Positions 1,166 to 63,300 of a DNA stretch of 64,000 nucleotides are shown here, piece by piece. The translations under genes were made by a program, and so were the position numbers. Under the pieces are notes generated by a model, which ran no database searches, had not been told where the DNA came from, and saw nothing but the letters and a program-made list of their open reading frames with translations. Source of the stretch: Apostichopus japonicus (Eukaryota; Echinodermata; Holothuroidea; Aspidochirotida; Stichopodidae); contig NC_092581.1 in NCBI RefSeq assembly GCF_037975245.1, forward strand, positions 11,120,803-11,184,802, in the 5' to 3' direction. Numbering within the stretch: the first letter of the stretch is position 1; each line of letters begins with the position of its first letter.

Positions 1166-4776
<3,611 letters not shown>

Positions 4777-6108
4777 CTCAAGGTGAAAGTACTAACTGAA
4801 TGGTGAGAAGAAGAATAAAAACAGAAAGCATTGTAGAGAACTTGAGAAGGATTCAATATGAACAAACATGCATGGAAAGGATGACTGTATATGAACAAAA
4901 TTAATTAGAATATATTGTAGAAATCATACCACTTCAGGTATTATTTCTGTTTCACTAATTTTTTATTTATTTTTTATTCTAGAAATTACACTAATAACAA
5001 CTGAGGATCTTAAATTAAAGTTGCTGGAATTTTAGACTAACACATAGACCATTAGTTCAATTTCCATAACATTGTAGCCTCAATATGCCTCATAATGCAC
5101 CATATCACTTCGAAAAGTGCATGTTTTCTAGAGGAGGGGGATGGGTGAACTCCAGTCCCCATTATATGGAAGTAAGTTTCAACGACCCCACTGTCATCCT
5201 CCCGCCAACACCCCCAGCCCCCCCCCCCCAACCTCCCCTTAAAATAACCTGGATCCGTTCGCTATTATTTTGACTCGTAATAAAAAAAACTCTCACAGAG
5301 AGTAGTTACTAAACCGAACATAGAAAGGATAATGCCTATGTGAAGGAAATATTTTCCCTTATACTTATATTTATACGTATTTTGCAGGTTGTATAACTAT
5401 ATTAATATACTACGTACGATAGCTTCATAAGCGTGTCGTCTTATTCTCTCACCATACTAATTTAATCTCAATGTACTTCCTTCCTTTATATTAATAACAT
5501 TCTCTTTATGATTATCTTTCGAGATCACATCCTCTCCTTCATAATCATCTTCTACTTTATTAGCAGCATACGACAATTATTATTCTTCTTTTTCTTTCTT
5601 TCTATCTACAACCAAATTTTACCGCAATCTTCATCAAATTAGATCTTCAATACACATGGGTGACATTAATGCAACAACGATAAATCCATCACTAACAAGC
5701 ATCGGTATACATATGCACACGAGCGAGATCATAATGTACAACTGCAGTGTATCTAATAAATCTTAAAAACGCCCACTCGGTGAATCAAGAAAAAATATAT
5801 TCATCCATAAGATGATAACGGCCTTGATTGACATTTTGATCAAGTATAACGAAACAAATCCATTACCGTGAAATGTAAATTAAAACACTTCTCGATAATA
5901 AAACAATAGTGATTTTTTCACCACATGGGATCATATGTATCTTACAGACAATGTGAATAATGTCGGTTATATTCGTAGGTTGAAAGCAGTGCAGTTGATC
6001 AATTTAATAAGGAAGATTCCTATCATATTAGATCATAATGATCAGAATACTTCGTTTATCAGCTGTCAAACCTCATATTGAGAGCCGTCCTCCACCAACG
6101 CACACGTG

Positions 6109-16300: not shown

Positions 16301-16360
16301 GATAACTTAAAAGGCAAAACGGAAATATCGTTGTTTTCTATTTATTTTCAGAGACTAAAT

Positions 16361-19300
16361 ATGGATCCTACAAGGCATTACAAGCTATCAACTTGTCCTA
16401 TATGGTCCTTGGCAGACAACAGGATATTCTTTCAAGTCGGATGTGCGATGTTCGCAATTGGTTTCTTGATTCCCCACAAAAGTTATTTAACTTCCTTTCT
16501 ATCCCATGTCTTCATAAGTCTAGCTCACATTGTAATGACATTTTGGGGTCTTCTATACATATGTTCACCAGATGTTTTTGGATGGAATTTATTCTTCTTC
16601 ATTTTGAATATAATCCATGCTGGATATTATCTTTGGAAAGTATGGCCTGTTGCCTTACAAAGGGAACTTACCGATCTCTACACGACTGTTTTCAAACCGT
16701 TTGATGTAAAGAAGCAAGAATTTATTGACCTCTGTAACATTGGGAAGGTCTGCACATTAAAGAACGGAGAGTGTTATGCAGAGGAAGGGATCACGTCAAC
16801 AGGAAATTTGTCAGTTGTACTGTATGGAAAGTAAGACATATTTTTAAGCGGGAGGGTGCGGGAATGGTACAGGAGGGGTGCGGTGCGATCGGAAGAGGTG
16901 CATGAGGGGTGCGGGGAGCACGGGAGGGGTCAAGGGGTTGGGAGGGGAGGGGAGGGGAGGGTTTCAAGGTGAGGGTGAGGAAGGGTTGTGGAGGGGTTCA
17001 TCATGGGCTCGTGGAGTACGGGATGGCTGAGGAAAGTGTGGAGGTTAATGAGGGGTGCGGGAAAGAGAAGGGTGCGTAGAATTTTACCAGAAACAACCGT
17101 TTCAAGGCTCATCATTTCACCCAAATATGCTATGCAGTCAAATGTTATAGTCACTCGTTTTCAAATTTCAACAACCACCTCCCTGCCATCCTTAAACCAT
17201 TTATATCTCTCATAGTCTTTCTTGTACTCTTCTTCGGGACATCTAGGAAAGAACTCTTTGAAAATAAAGGGCCATAATTCAGGACATATTTTGGAGGATC
17301 TCTCGGATTTATATTAATCACGCCTCTCCTTCGTTGAAGTGTTGAATTTTCCAAAGCCTGTGATTTTCAAAAGTAGCCTTGAATTTGAGGATATGTTTCA
17401 TTTTGTTTCTTTAGGCCTATACACTTAATTAATACCTTTTCCTTTTATCCTCAGAGTGAAAGTCTATTGCGGTGGTGAGTTTCTTCACCATATTTTAGAC
17501 AAACAGTTTCTGGACTCACCAGAATGGGATGCTTATGACAACCACCACCAAGCCGATAAATTTCAGGTAAGGACAATTTGTTGGTGAAGCCGGTAGACTA
17601 TATGGAACCGAGGATATCTACATATTTCACTGTAGGGTCTCTTACTATCAACTCATATAGTAATTGACGAAGAGGTTGGAGGGAAAAAGGGGGGGTACGG
17701 TAAATAGTAAAATATGGCGCTCCTCTGCTTCAAAAAATTCCGAACTTACATGCCCCACCCAATTGACATAGCGTGATACCGAGTCCCAAAAGAATATCAT
17801 ACAACGTGCCATACATCAATGGAAAGGTACAAGTGTAAATATTCAATGTAACATAAACATTGACCTGATAAGAGGATGTCGAAAAACCACCAGCTATGCT
17901 TTTTAAGGTTTATCACGGTACTGGGAGGCAAGTGCCCCCCCCCCCATGACTCCCCCTCCCCTCCTTTTAGCATTGTAGTTGGGTCTGAGTGTCTGTGTCT
18001 TCAGTATTTTCTCTCCTGTTCAGGGTCCTTGATGGGGACTTGAGTGTCCCTCCTGATCATTTTTTCCTATTCAACTAAACTAAACTACTCCATATTTGTG
18101 GTTATTTGGATATAAACAACGCCCTCTAATTGGCATTCCTTTGTAGAGATGATCTAAGATTTCGTTGATAACTCCTTTAAATCACTTAAATTTTCCCACT
18201 TTTAAGAGTCCCATTTTCAGATACATGCGCTCTGTAATAATTTCCATTCATTGTTATGGATAGAACATTGAAATATTGCATCGTTTATCTGATTTGAATA
18301 CAAACACCATACAGTATTTCACTACGGGGCAAAGTACATCTTCAAACGATTGCTTCATATTTTTCGCCTATTGAATCTTTACTACTATACTTCCAAGGAT
18401 CATTTCTATAGTTCGTAAGTTATTACTAGTGATTCTCGGCCTTTTGGCTAAGATCATGTGTAGTATCTGTTCCCTTCGGGAATGGTGATACACACCTGAC
18501 GATGATCACACAGTCACAGTCCCGATGCAAGGGGACTGGGGCTGAGAGCGGATCAGTCGTTTGGTAGTTTGGTTTTCGTGCCCAGGTTCTTTCCTGGGTG
18601 ACTTTTTCTTAAAAAGTATTACTAGTGATTCTCGGCCTTTTGGCTAAGATCATGTGTAGTATCTGTTCCCTTCGGGAATGGTGATACACACCTGACGATG
18701 ATCACACAGTCACAGTCCCGATGCAAGGGGACTGGGGCTGAGAGCGGATCAGTCGTTTGGTAGTTTGGTTTTCGTGCCCAGGTTCTTTCCTGGGTGACTT
18801 TTTCTTAAAAAGTATTACTAGTGATTAGAATTGTTTGGAGTTGCAACCACGATGACGAGTAACAATGTCTCTCTCTGAGCGTGAAGCGGAACAGAAACAG
18901 CGTTAATTCGTAGTCTCTGATCATTGATGACCGTTCCTCTGCTCTTCGGAGTTCTGGAGGAGAGAGACATATTCAGAGTGGCTGCAAACATAGTAGTGTT
19001 ATTCTTATTAAACAATGTAAAGAAAGATCACCCAAAATACTAACAGCATGGCAAGTGTGTCGTACCGGCATGTAAATAATTGCAATAATTGACAAATTTG
19101 CCATTTCAATTTTGTTCATTTACGAGAGGACAAAATATACATTGATGAGTAGTACCGGTATGTTATCATATGTACAGGCATTGTTTTACTTTTATGTATC
19201 ATTGTACTCAATTGTTGTTATTCTTTCTTCATACAGTTTTGTGTTTGTATCCAAAACGTATTTTTATACTCTTTCTATAAGTTTTCAATACATATCGATA

Positions 19301-59972: not shown

Positions 59973-60181
59973 GTAAGAACAAAATCAGACTTGTTTCTCA
60001 CAGTCATTTTCAGTGGAAAGTTTCCTTCATGGGTATATTAAGTTAGTTCCGATAAAGCCACATACTTGGGAAATACACAGTTATACGAAACCAGTTTATA
60101 CGCATTCACGCACCTGTAGAATCGCTGTGGTCGAGTGGTACGGACTTCGGTCTGTGACCAAAGGTCCGAGTTCGATTCCTA

Positions 60182-60225
60182 GCTTCGCCTGATGAGTCCC
60201 AAAAGGACGAAACCGGTCGTGAAGT
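60182..60225 (+). ncRNA. Type I hammerhead ribozyme, copy 1, cleavable GUC
   Basis: Core CTGATGA (60189-60195), stem II GTCC/GGAC with a five-base loop (60196-60208), GAAA (60209-60212), then CCGGTC with predicted cleavage after C60218. Stem I pairs 60219-60225 with 60188-60182 over seven pairs, two of them G-U. Stem III is the palindrome ACCGGT with no loop, so one molecule can form only a minimal stem and two molecules could pair through it. All core residues required for catalysis are present. Confidence 0.8.
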
Positions 60226-60275
60226 GAATGCGTATAAATTGGCTTTGTATACAAAGCCAATTTATACGCATTCAC
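60224..60275 (+). repeat. Perfect 52-bp palindrome inside the retrozyme dimer
   Basis: Starts GTGAATGCGTATAAATTGGC, with its exact reverse complement following without spacer; the centre lies between 60249 and 60250. In RNA it would fold as a long rod next to the ribozyme. Confidence 0.95.
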
Positions 60276-60348
60276 ACACCAGTAGAATCACTGTGGTCAA
60301 GTGGTTCGGACTTCGGTCTGTGACACAAGATCCGGGGTTCGATTCCTA

Positions 60349-60391
60349 CCTTCGCCTGATGAGTCCCAAAAGGACGAAACCGGTGGTGCAG
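60349..60391 (+). ncRNA. Type I hammerhead ribozyme, copy 2, cleavage site GUG
   Basis: Same core (CTGATGA at 60356-60362, stem II GTCC/GGAC, GAAA), but the base at the cleavage position, 60385, is G. Hammerheads cut after NUH, where H is not G, so this copy should not cleave. Stem I has also lost a pair (C60389 facing T60352). Confidence 0.75.
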
Positions 60392-60395
60392 TGGA

Positions 60396-63300
60396 ATTTT
60401 TCTGGTGTGTTGTTCTTTAATTATTTACTATATATCTGTCATACCACTGGTACACATATATATATAGTGACAGAGGTATATAGACATGTAATGCAAAACA
60501 GAATATGTTTTCTTGCACATGTTACGTCGTGCAGCGCATGTCGCCGGTATGTATAAGAAAGTTAATTCACACCCTAATCAGAACGTTCATTTTTAACTCA
60601 GTGTTCCTTTAATTTATTAAAATGAATGTCACGTGTGCAGAGGTTTCTTCTCGACATATGATTCAGTTTGTAATAGAAAGTTGTCGGGTCAATGCTCGGT
60701 ATTTACGGTAGAGATCTATACATGTAAACTTTAATTTCACGTGATGCAATATCATATGGTATAATTGCATACGGTTGGACAGTGATCTCTACTTTCATTG
60801 CTGAATCCAGGCTTTCACGTATACTCAGTCGCTGGACAGAATTATAAAGTACGGCTACAAAATTGGGTCAAGAACGTACATAAAATCCCTTGACGACCCA
60901 CTTAGTTTCAAGAAGAGCTCTCCAAGATTTGAAGTCTCCAGGGACCTATCTAGCCATCAAGTAATAAAACCATAACTGCACGAACGGCAGTCACCATAAG
61001 GCAGGTTAACGGTAAATGGTGCATAGGTTAAATTGAACGCAATAAGGCTCGTTAATATTATATTATTTGAGGTACGAGCGCAGAAAGCATAAGCGCGAGT
61101 ACAAAGGGACAATTCCCTTGGTATAAGTTTACGAGTACAATATGAATATGAACTGAATATGACTGAAAACAATTGAACAGGGCTCTAAGCGCGGTACCCA
61201 TGCACGATACTTCAATCGCGTACTGTAGTCTATAGTTTTATGATATTATAGATTTCAAAATTGCCACGAGTTCGGAAGTACGATTACAAATCCTGGGCGA
61301 GTCCGCTAGCACAGGTAACTTTACTAGCATACGATACGGGAACGAGTATGTACTCTTAACGGGAATATGGTTATAAGTAAGTAGGTATAGCCTATCTTTG
61401 CTAATGCACTGCAATTGATAATAATTATAAACCGAAAAAGCTCAAAGGAAGCTTTGGCTAGAACGTGGTTCGAACCTTTGATTTTAGGGTCAGCCAGCTT
61501 TCCGTTGCTTATTTACTTAAGTTTACCATCATAACAGATTTATATCTCACATAAATCTGTAAGTAAGCACAATATCGTAATTTCAACTGCACATGCGTAT
61601 AAAATAACATAGCTTATATAGCGATTCACTTTTTCCGTGTACATATATGAATTATGTGGTGCACTTTTTGCTGAATATATCAGCTAAAGATGTAAGAAGA
61701 ATCTACAATCACTGAAGGTAAGCTGAAAGTAGCTTTTTGACTTGACTTCGATATTTTTCGATAAGTTTGCTATTTTGATAATTTAGGCCTTTAGCTTGAA
61801 TTTAGACAGAATTCATATCAAATACGGTAACGAAGGAAAGAAGGTATAAGCCTTTTTGGGCAAATTGTTGGACCAAATTCAGACATTGACTACAAAAGCA
61901 ATGATTTAATGCGTTTGCTTTGTCATTTTTAAACAAAACAAATATATGATTGCCATATACCCACCGGGGATGACTCACTTGCCATGAGAATAAAACAATG
62001 AAAAGTAATTATCGCAGATGTTTCGTTTGAATGTTAATTACATGCGAAATGATGATCGTATTTTCAATATTCAATTTATAAATATTATACAATGAAAATG
62101 TATGACAGACTTATCCCAAGACACCAAACTCCATGAAAAACAGTAAGCAAGCTCCTAATGAAGTCCATGCATATTGTAGCTATTAATATTAATAAGCACG
62201 GTATTAATATTTATAGTCGGTACGCAAAACTCCAAAAAAAAGTGTATATCAAACATTGCCCAGCGGTATATGTGTGGTTTTAATCTAATTAAGTTCAATT
62301 GGAAAATATGTAAAATACCGCATAATTTTTAATGTATATGCATACTCGATTAAGGTATACTGCAAGTATAAAGCGCTTGGGTAAAAGTTTCAAAGTAAAA
62401 GTTGGAAACTGGCCTGATTGCTTTTGATTTTCTGATAGTTACAATTTTAAATTTCTTCCCCAATCATTAAACAATGTTAATTAACCTTATTTTACGAGTT
62501 ATGCTTACCAATGTTGTGTTGTTAACAGAGTTTGATAGAACTGTTTATAAAACTGGTATTTTTAGAATCGGATCATTGACCTCAAGTGTATACAATCACC
62601 AGCACATTTCTAGATCATTAATTTGTTTGGTGAACTGAATTGATTGTTATTTCTGATGAGTTAAAGTTCGGTCCTTAGTTCCACGGTACAGTAGAACTGT
62701 TTCTTGTTAATTTTCTTTTTTTCTCTTGAATAATGACGTCATGGGTTGTAAAGAAATTCAAATTTTCTCTCCAGCAGAGTATTTCAGATTCACATTTCGT
62801 TTTTTAAGTAATAGGGCCACAAATATAGCCTATATTTGTCTTCAGTACAGCACATTTCTAGGCCCAATTAATCTGATTCGTGAACTGAATTGATTGTTAT
62901 TTCTGATGAGTAAAGTGCGGTCCTTAGTTCCGTAAAATAGTAAAACTGTTTCTGTTACTATTATTATTATTTTTTTGCCTGAAATAATGACGTCATGTCT
63001 TGTAAAGAAAAAAATCAAATTTTCTCTCCGGCATGCAGAGTACTTCAGATTCACATTTCGTTTTTTGAAGTAAAAGAGCCACATACACTTGTCTTTCAGT
63101 AACGCGTATATATTTTTTTCTCTGTTCTCTCATGTGATGAAACGAGTTAAGGTGCTACGGTATGTTTCTATGCTGCCCGGTGATGCTTTAATTGTAGATC
63201 ACATGTCACGCTCGACTGAAATGAAGCGAGAGTTCTTTAATATCGAAGTAAAGGGCTCTCATTATGTAGTACAGGAACCTGTGACTAAAAGCTCAAGTAC

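Follow-up and report, generated by a model that had tools for sequence, protein, structure and literature searches.

The locus at 60080-60457 of the window (the whole 64,000-nucleotide stretch of Apostichopus japonicus DNA analysed here) is, judged from its sequence, a single scrambled copy of a repeated retroelement that carries Pol III-type boxes and a hammerhead ribozyme. We consider it probably to be a rearranged animal non-LTR retrozyme, in which a tRNA-like Pol III promoter is combined with a type I hammerhead and which would enter the genome through TA-primed integration of a probable circle.

Results

A rearranged copy of a multi-copy family

Two joined pieces of one repeat make up the locus, each with an A box, a B box and a type I hammerhead core (Table 1), and the repeat search of the window finds direct copies at a spacing of 166-167 bp (87 nt at 87% and 57 nt at 95% identity). 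An earlier note on this DNA had described a tandem pair of Pol III-type boxes and hammerhead cores with this spacing, and its letters are confirmed here; the element, which the note had ended at 60395, extends to the right as far as about 60457.

Table 1. Features of the rearranged retrozyme copy, in window coordinates; q positions refer to the 337-bp unit of locus L084
Feature	Position	Strand	Basis
Unit 1, partial retrozyme unit q1-147: left segment, A box, B box, hammerhead	60080..60226	+	blastn against L084 unit, 89.9% identity
A box, unit 1, TGGTCGAGTGG	60128..60138	+	pattern match
B box, unit 1, AGTTCGATTCC, one letter off; family form GGTTCGATTCC	60169..60179	+	sequence; family letters
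Hammerhead 1, type I; predicted cut after C60218; helix III A[CCGG]U	60183..60224	+	Rfam Hammerhead_1, 38.8 bits
Palindrome, perfect, 52 bp: inverted q29-q3, then direct q3-q29 of next unit	60224..60275	.	inverted repeat, 26-nt arms, 100%
Unit 2, retrozyme unit q3-212	60248..60457	+	blastn against L084 unit, 93.8% over 211 columns
A box, unit 2, TGGTCAAGTGG	60294..60304	+	pattern match
B box, unit 2, GGTTCGATTCC, exact consensus	60336..60346	+	pattern match
Hammerhead 2, core letters kept, triplet GTG at 60383-60385, predicted inactive	60350..60391	+	sequence; sub-threshold Rfam match
T5, possible Pol III terminator just past ribozyme	60397..60401	+	sole T4+ run in 60050-60500
Short TA tract at 3' join of insertion (join at q212, then ATATATATA)	60456..60466	.	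position from sequence

A search of the genome (671.6 Mb, 35 contigs) with the 301-bp element as first query, in which 40 places were scored among 1014 first-look candidates, returned at least 67 matches, bearing out the proposal of a repeated family, similar to an animal retrozyme, in which Pol III-type boxes stand together with a type I hammerhead; no family copy occurred in 20 arbitrarily chosen 10-kb stretches. Tandem copies of the 167-bp dimer had also been expected: the family is indeed multi-copy, but among the 67 scored matches only the 60080-60457 locus matched both halves of the query in one piece, the others being single units or pieces, and we rejected a 167-bp retrozyme on this ground. 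Locus L084 is a near-trimer of about three tandem units whose starts lie 337 and 340 bp apart, and joined or tandem units are also found at L098, L099, L119 and many further loci. The family's normal unit, as seen in L084, is 337-340 bp rather than the very short 167 bp put forward before. Tandem units abut head to tail without an internal region, and the GC content of the L084 unit is 41%, below the roughly 45-50% that bounds animal non-LTR retrozymes. With the 337-bp L084 unit as a ruler for q coordinates, we compared 40 loci drawn from the places found by the first query, the 60080-60457 locus included. The normal unit continues after the cleavage site with GTGAAGTGGAATTTTTCTGGTGTGT and then about 170 more bases, and in the 40 loci the last unit likewise continues with the usual post-ribozyme sequence, truncations and point changes aside.

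Aligned to the L084 unit with blastn, unit 1 breaks off about 8 nt past its cleavage site and an inverted copy of the start of the next unit (q29-q3) takes over, which creates the 52-bp palindrome. Since this inverted piece replaces the normal sequence after the cleavage site of unit 1, the 167-bp period and the rod are accidents of one copy. The rod-forming palindrome that the earlier note had offered as a family feature is thus real, but on this alignment it is a rearrangement junction local to the 60080-60457 locus and no family trait, and we rejected it as a family rod. The rearrangement junctions, read from the blastn alignment, have in common GTG and a self-complementary TATA, as would be expected of template switching. 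A clear target duplication was not seen at the locus, where TA targets would mask short ones.

Hammerhead ribozymes and their predicted dimer

The core CTGATGA-GTCC-CAAAA-GGAC-GAAAC is present twice, at 60189-60213 and 60356-60380, so that the claim of a complete hammerhead in each unit holds for the core letters; it fails for unit 2, whose triplet is GTG and which, unlike unit 1 (E 2.8e-6 for the window), does not pass the 34-bit cut-off of the Rfam Hammerhead_1 model. The best Rfam ribozyme match of unit 2 is HH9, at 32.6 bits under a cut-off of 52, in a sub-threshold alignment that puts an internal loop in helix I. Hammerhead cleavage triplets follow the NUH rule, under which GTG is non-cleavable; ribozyme 2 should therefore not cleave, and because it lacks a cleavable triplet the locus is unlikely to yield a 167-nt circle. 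Across 46 family unit copies the triplet is GTC in 42, GTG in two, GTT in one and GCC in one, and the catalytic letters are intact in 35.

The letters that follow GAA, A-CCGG-U-C, form a helix III of one pair with a palindromic tetraloop, and because helix III is reduced to one pair with a palindromic CCGG loop, we suggest that the family hammerhead probably cuts as a dimer held together through this loop. Energy prediction for the 42-nt core agrees with such a model, in that the double hammerhead is the predicted best fold of the dimer (-26.5 kcal/mol) whereas in the monomer the hammerhead (-3.1 kcal/mol) competes with a rival fold at -11.2 kcal/mol. The module of boxes and ribozyme in L084 is predicted to fold into an outer stem and two arms (z -2.87, with 3 of 200 shuffles scoring at least as well). 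Conservation of the ribozyme and promoter columns, at 0.94-0.99, is little better than the 0.948 found elsewhere, which is as expected of decaying copies and gives no sign of selection.

Possible repeated reading of one template

At least 40 unit columns were read twice in 12 loci, giving 15 pairs of passes. Taking as rare a variant present in at most 15% of the other loci, we find that overlapping passes of one insert have rare variants in common at 17 sites, against a null mean of 2.47 that in none of 400 permutations rose to this number; the figures are 11 against 1.59 without L084 and 8 against 1.39 without L084 and L098. The sharing implies that the two passes were made on one template, or on templates that were almost identical, for which a circle would be the simplest reading; identical linear units in a run could also yield shared variants. 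Against this, in several loci overall divergence within inserts is not below that between inserts, a comparison that is not decisive. Nor is the excess of inserts close to one unit in length more than weak: with L084 left out, 8 of 39 spans fall within 15 nt of 337, where 3.5 are expected (P 0.02), and four within 5 nt (P 0.03), but the excess is not significant within 10 or 20 nt (P 0.09 for both).

Insertion joins, TA repeats and inverted segments

The 3' joins cluster, with 20 of the 40 at q183-192 (CTATATAT) and 12 at q212-226; the ruler itself carries CTATATAT at q182-189 (TATATAT), so alignments can enter TA tracts and some q189 joins are upper limits, L081 and L085 being examples. The interval running from 8 nt before the 3' join to 30 nt past it holds a (TA)4+ tract in 31 of 40 loci, as compared with backgrounds of 3.9% in the window (358/9115), 3.2% in the flanks (117/3679) and 1.8% in 200 arbitrary kb (518/28400). 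TA is found near the 5' end in 15 loci and, by row count, on both sides in 14. Because TA lies on both sides and because joins at q212-226 also meet TA tracts, the sequences speak for insertion into TA repeats over growth of a tail.

Inverted segments of at least 26 nt are present in 12 of the 40 loci. Setting aside L080, which is the 60080-60457 locus with its fold-back, and L081, in which the inverted piece belongs to another copy, we find the remaining ten to have their outer ends at q189, 189, 193, 197, 216, 220, 226, 299, 333 and 334; five thus fall within the two stretches in which 3' joins cluster, and two more are no more than 5 nt away. One insert, L093, is complex, with several unit pieces in both orientations, and possibly records a multi-switch event.

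A second set of loci was drawn with the 3' part of the unit as query (L084:1690-1835), for which scoring 40 of 512 candidates gave at least 40 matches; 20 loci were fetched in listed order, skipping those already in the first set, and as L148/L149 and L153/L158 look like duplicate pairs the independent number is nearer 18. TA accompanies the 3' join in 10 of these 20, and nine joins fall in the two stretches defined above, or 12 with the first stretch widened to q182-197; the eight elsewhere are at q6 (GT repeats), q14, q56, q63, q97, q125, q139 and q159. The TA enrichment is therefore repeated but weaker, and amounts to a tendency rather than a strict requirement. Every one of the 20 extends to q1 of the next unit, although L143 and L145 do so by only 6 and 14 nt, the full core is found by pattern in 12, and the set gave no sign that the 3' part belongs to another element too. 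The q139 join, in L146, coincides exactly with the predicted cleavage site and is followed shortly after by a 22-nt piece (q214-235); this break may reflect a template that had been cleaved, or else a deletion.

Pol III boxes and alternative origins

ARAGORN finds no tRNA in the window, and the Rfam tRNA model has no match in 60050-60450 even at E up to 10; we accordingly rejected a tRNA gene, and the term tRNA-like, used in the earlier note, survives here for the A and B boxes only. Two A-box/B-box pairs were observed, against a mean of 0.05 and a maximum of 1 in 200 shuffles, with a pattern that was written post hoc. A T4+ run occupies q146-160 in 37 of 44 unit copies, on the ruler as a T5 12 nt past the cleavage site, and a T4+ run recurs within q161-337 in 6 of the 18 units with enough columns. 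A Pol III transcript of a family unit would thus in many cases be about 120 nt long. The T5 after the ribozyme therefore makes Pol III doubtful as the maker of the mobile RNA; it may be a source of short family RNAs.

These features raise the alternative of a tRNA-type SINE with a passenger hammerhead, in which a LINE copies linear, sometimes multimeric transcripts and no circle is needed. The boxes are well kept across 42 copies (A box intact in 35, B box in 38), the T4+ run does follow the ribozyme in most units, and the 5' truncations and inversions resemble LINE-type insertions; the family's inverted insertions are reminiscent of LINE twin priming. Against this, 34 of 40 inserts begin outside q1-36, in the preceding unit, and run from there into q1 of the next by our own count, and 39 of the 40 last matches end past q155, downstream of the T5. 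Two of the 40 inserts have their 5' end close to where Pol III should start (L093 at q31, L109 at q32), where by a rough estimate about one is expected, and the rare variants common to the passes of one insert also speak against this origin. Set beside the features of SINE2 elements, the family has A and B boxes, lacks a recognisable tRNA fold, and does not have its 5' ends at the Pol III start. We therefore regard a SINE with a passenger ribozyme as an unlikely account of the family.

A tandem repeat of satellite type, multiplied through unequal crossing-over or similar DNA processes and retaining the hammerhead as a relic, would explain the tandem units at L084, L098, L099 and L119; it is very improbable given that no array in the 40 loci is longer than about three units (L084, 1009 bp) and that copies are scattered over many contigs, with 3' joins clustered at TA tracts and with inverted segments. 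A working 167-nt dimeric retrozyme with a rod palindrome, the founder of a new and very short family, has its tandem copies, both cores, its palindrome and an intact ribozyme 1 in the sequence, yet we give it almost no weight, since both units are matched at this one locus among the scored matches, ribozyme 2 has GTG, and the last unit elsewhere continues normally after the ribozyme.

Searches beyond the family and other features of the window

A loose B-box/hammerhead pattern retrieved six stretches from IMG/VR, where a pattern for the family-like core retrieved none. Prokaryote genomes gave 73 stretches, which we take as chance. Among these 79 IMG/VR and prokaryote loci (L001-L079) the script pattern found the full core in L004 only, at 4738-4868 on the minus strand of the viral contig IMGVR_UViG_3300033182_000420. 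There a tRNA-like hairpin with GGGGTTCGATTCCCC is directly followed by a hammerhead that by eye is complete, with three helices of 4-5 pairs and a GTC cut site; for 4738-4868 ARAGORN and Rfam return nothing, and the minimum-energy fold is without the hammerhead.

Elsewhere in the window, 18421-18826 and 18794-18982 hold a perfect 196-bp tandem (2.1 copies, 100%) whose unit starts with the 5' end of U2 snRNA; a U3 snoRNA match follows it, and the leader TATTACTAGTGATT precedes each. The tandem is possibly a recent snRNA-derived duplication. A 250-bp repeat at 62600-63088 (1.9 copies, 82%) contains CTGATGAG and has no match to the hammerhead core pattern, and two ORFs, at 4291-4776 (minus strand) and 16331-16834 (plus strand), carry a POPDC1-3 (Popeye) domain. 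Like the U2 and U3 matches, these domains indicate animal DNA.

Discussion

Taken together, these observations let us outline how a retrozyme of this kind could work and how the rearranged copy could have arisen. The element would be transcribed by Pol III from its A and B boxes, by read-through, or by both, and the multimeric RNA would be cut at GUC by hammerheads that, in the predicted fold, pair as dimers through the ACCGGU of helix III. By analogy with published retrozymes, a host tRNA ligase might then circularise the monomer. Nicked genomic (TA)n ends could anneal to UAUAUAU-like sites in the RNA and prime reverse transcription, presumably by the borrowed enzyme of another retroelement; no obvious reverse transcriptase was seen by eye in 25 ORFs of at least 160 aa from the window, L080-L119 and the 200 arbitrary kb. 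The insertion anatomy suggests that the enzyme travels up to or past one turn of the template and that both target strands prime at times, leaving an inverted 5' segment. At the 60080-60457 locus, template switching would have led from unit 1 through the q29-q3 fold-back into unit 2, and so to an apparent 167-bp dimer.

We advance more tentatively, at somewhat less than even confidence, the specific proposal that a ribozyme-made circle, equipped with a Pol III promoter, serves directly as template and that the 3' ends of both strands of the self-complementary (TA)n repeats prime on it from both sides. If that were so, the ends of each insert would record its priming sites, and any circular RNA with a UAUAUAU site would be insertable likewise. 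The accessible text of PMC7229834 and PMC7761336 does not settle the route by which retrozyme circles re-enter the genome, nor the promoter and enzyme involved. With its TA-clustered joins, its inverted segments often primed at similar sites and its variant-sharing passes, the present family offers a readable record in which circle-templated, target-primed integration would become countable within one genome. It would also be a second example, after the schistosomes, of a tRNA-type promoter combined with a hammerhead.

Among repeats with tRNA-type Pol III boxes, Helenus, a group of tRNA-bearing miniature LTR elements of bivalves and others, likewise places them in a non-autonomous repeat, and is described in the available parts of PMC10886601 with two LTRs, a primer site, a polypurine tract and 4-5-bp target duplications. 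The units studied here differ in that they abut head to tail and carry a ribozyme; we rejected a Helenus-type LTR structure for the 60080-60457 locus, where the two copies are parted only by a 26-nt inverted segment, without an LTR-internal region-LTR layout. Penelope-like element and Terminon hammerheads are minimal ribozymes that sit inside protein-coding elements, whereas that of the family sits in a short non-coding unit. Penelope-like elements carry type I hammerheads and tandem copies and have been suggested as a source of retrozyme mobility (PMC7229834, PMC11722881), the accessible text of the second, a 2024 review, naming LINEs or Penelope-like elements as possible sources.

Closest in organization are the animal non-LTR retrozymes of coral, mussel and axolotl, which the consulted sections of PMC7229834 describe as short tandem type I hammerhead elements with linear and circular RNA, and with which the family has in common the type I hammerhead, dimeric or multimeric arrangement of 150-450-bp repeats, and low GC. 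Its A-CCGG-U helix III is the form of the axolotl HHR_Amex1, a ribozyme with a very weak helix III and a palindromic tetraloop, whose cleavage is poor in the monomer and much improved in the dimer (PMC7229834, as excerpted). In contrast, most invertebrate retrozyme ribozymes are described in the same text as cleaving efficiently, whereas that of the family is predicted to need a dimer. Retrozymes are said to seem promoterless, the animal ones being without a motif that betrays the mobilising retrotransposon (PMC7761336, in the part available); unlike the animal retrozymes described there, the family carries both boxes, A and B, and is often joined to TA repeats. In the accessible parts of the open-licence literature, we found neither retrozymes with joins to TA repeats nor twin-primed retrozyme insertions described.

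The schistosome repeats, with a full tRNA-Gln, are a stated exception among such elements (PMC4918200, PMC2770079), one that in the accessible text of PMC4918200 concerns the absence of primer-site and polypurine motifs. Like the high-copy SINE-like elements Sm-alpha and Sj-alpha, as described in the available portions of PMC2770079 and PMC4918200, the family is short and repeated and joins a tRNA-type sequence to a type I hammerhead; compared by description only, those elements hold a full tRNA-Gln and the family has boxes without a tRNA fold. On its sequence, we thus place the element as a new variant of animal retrozyme, in which the tRNA-like boxes are unusual and for which the schistosome repeats are a precedent.
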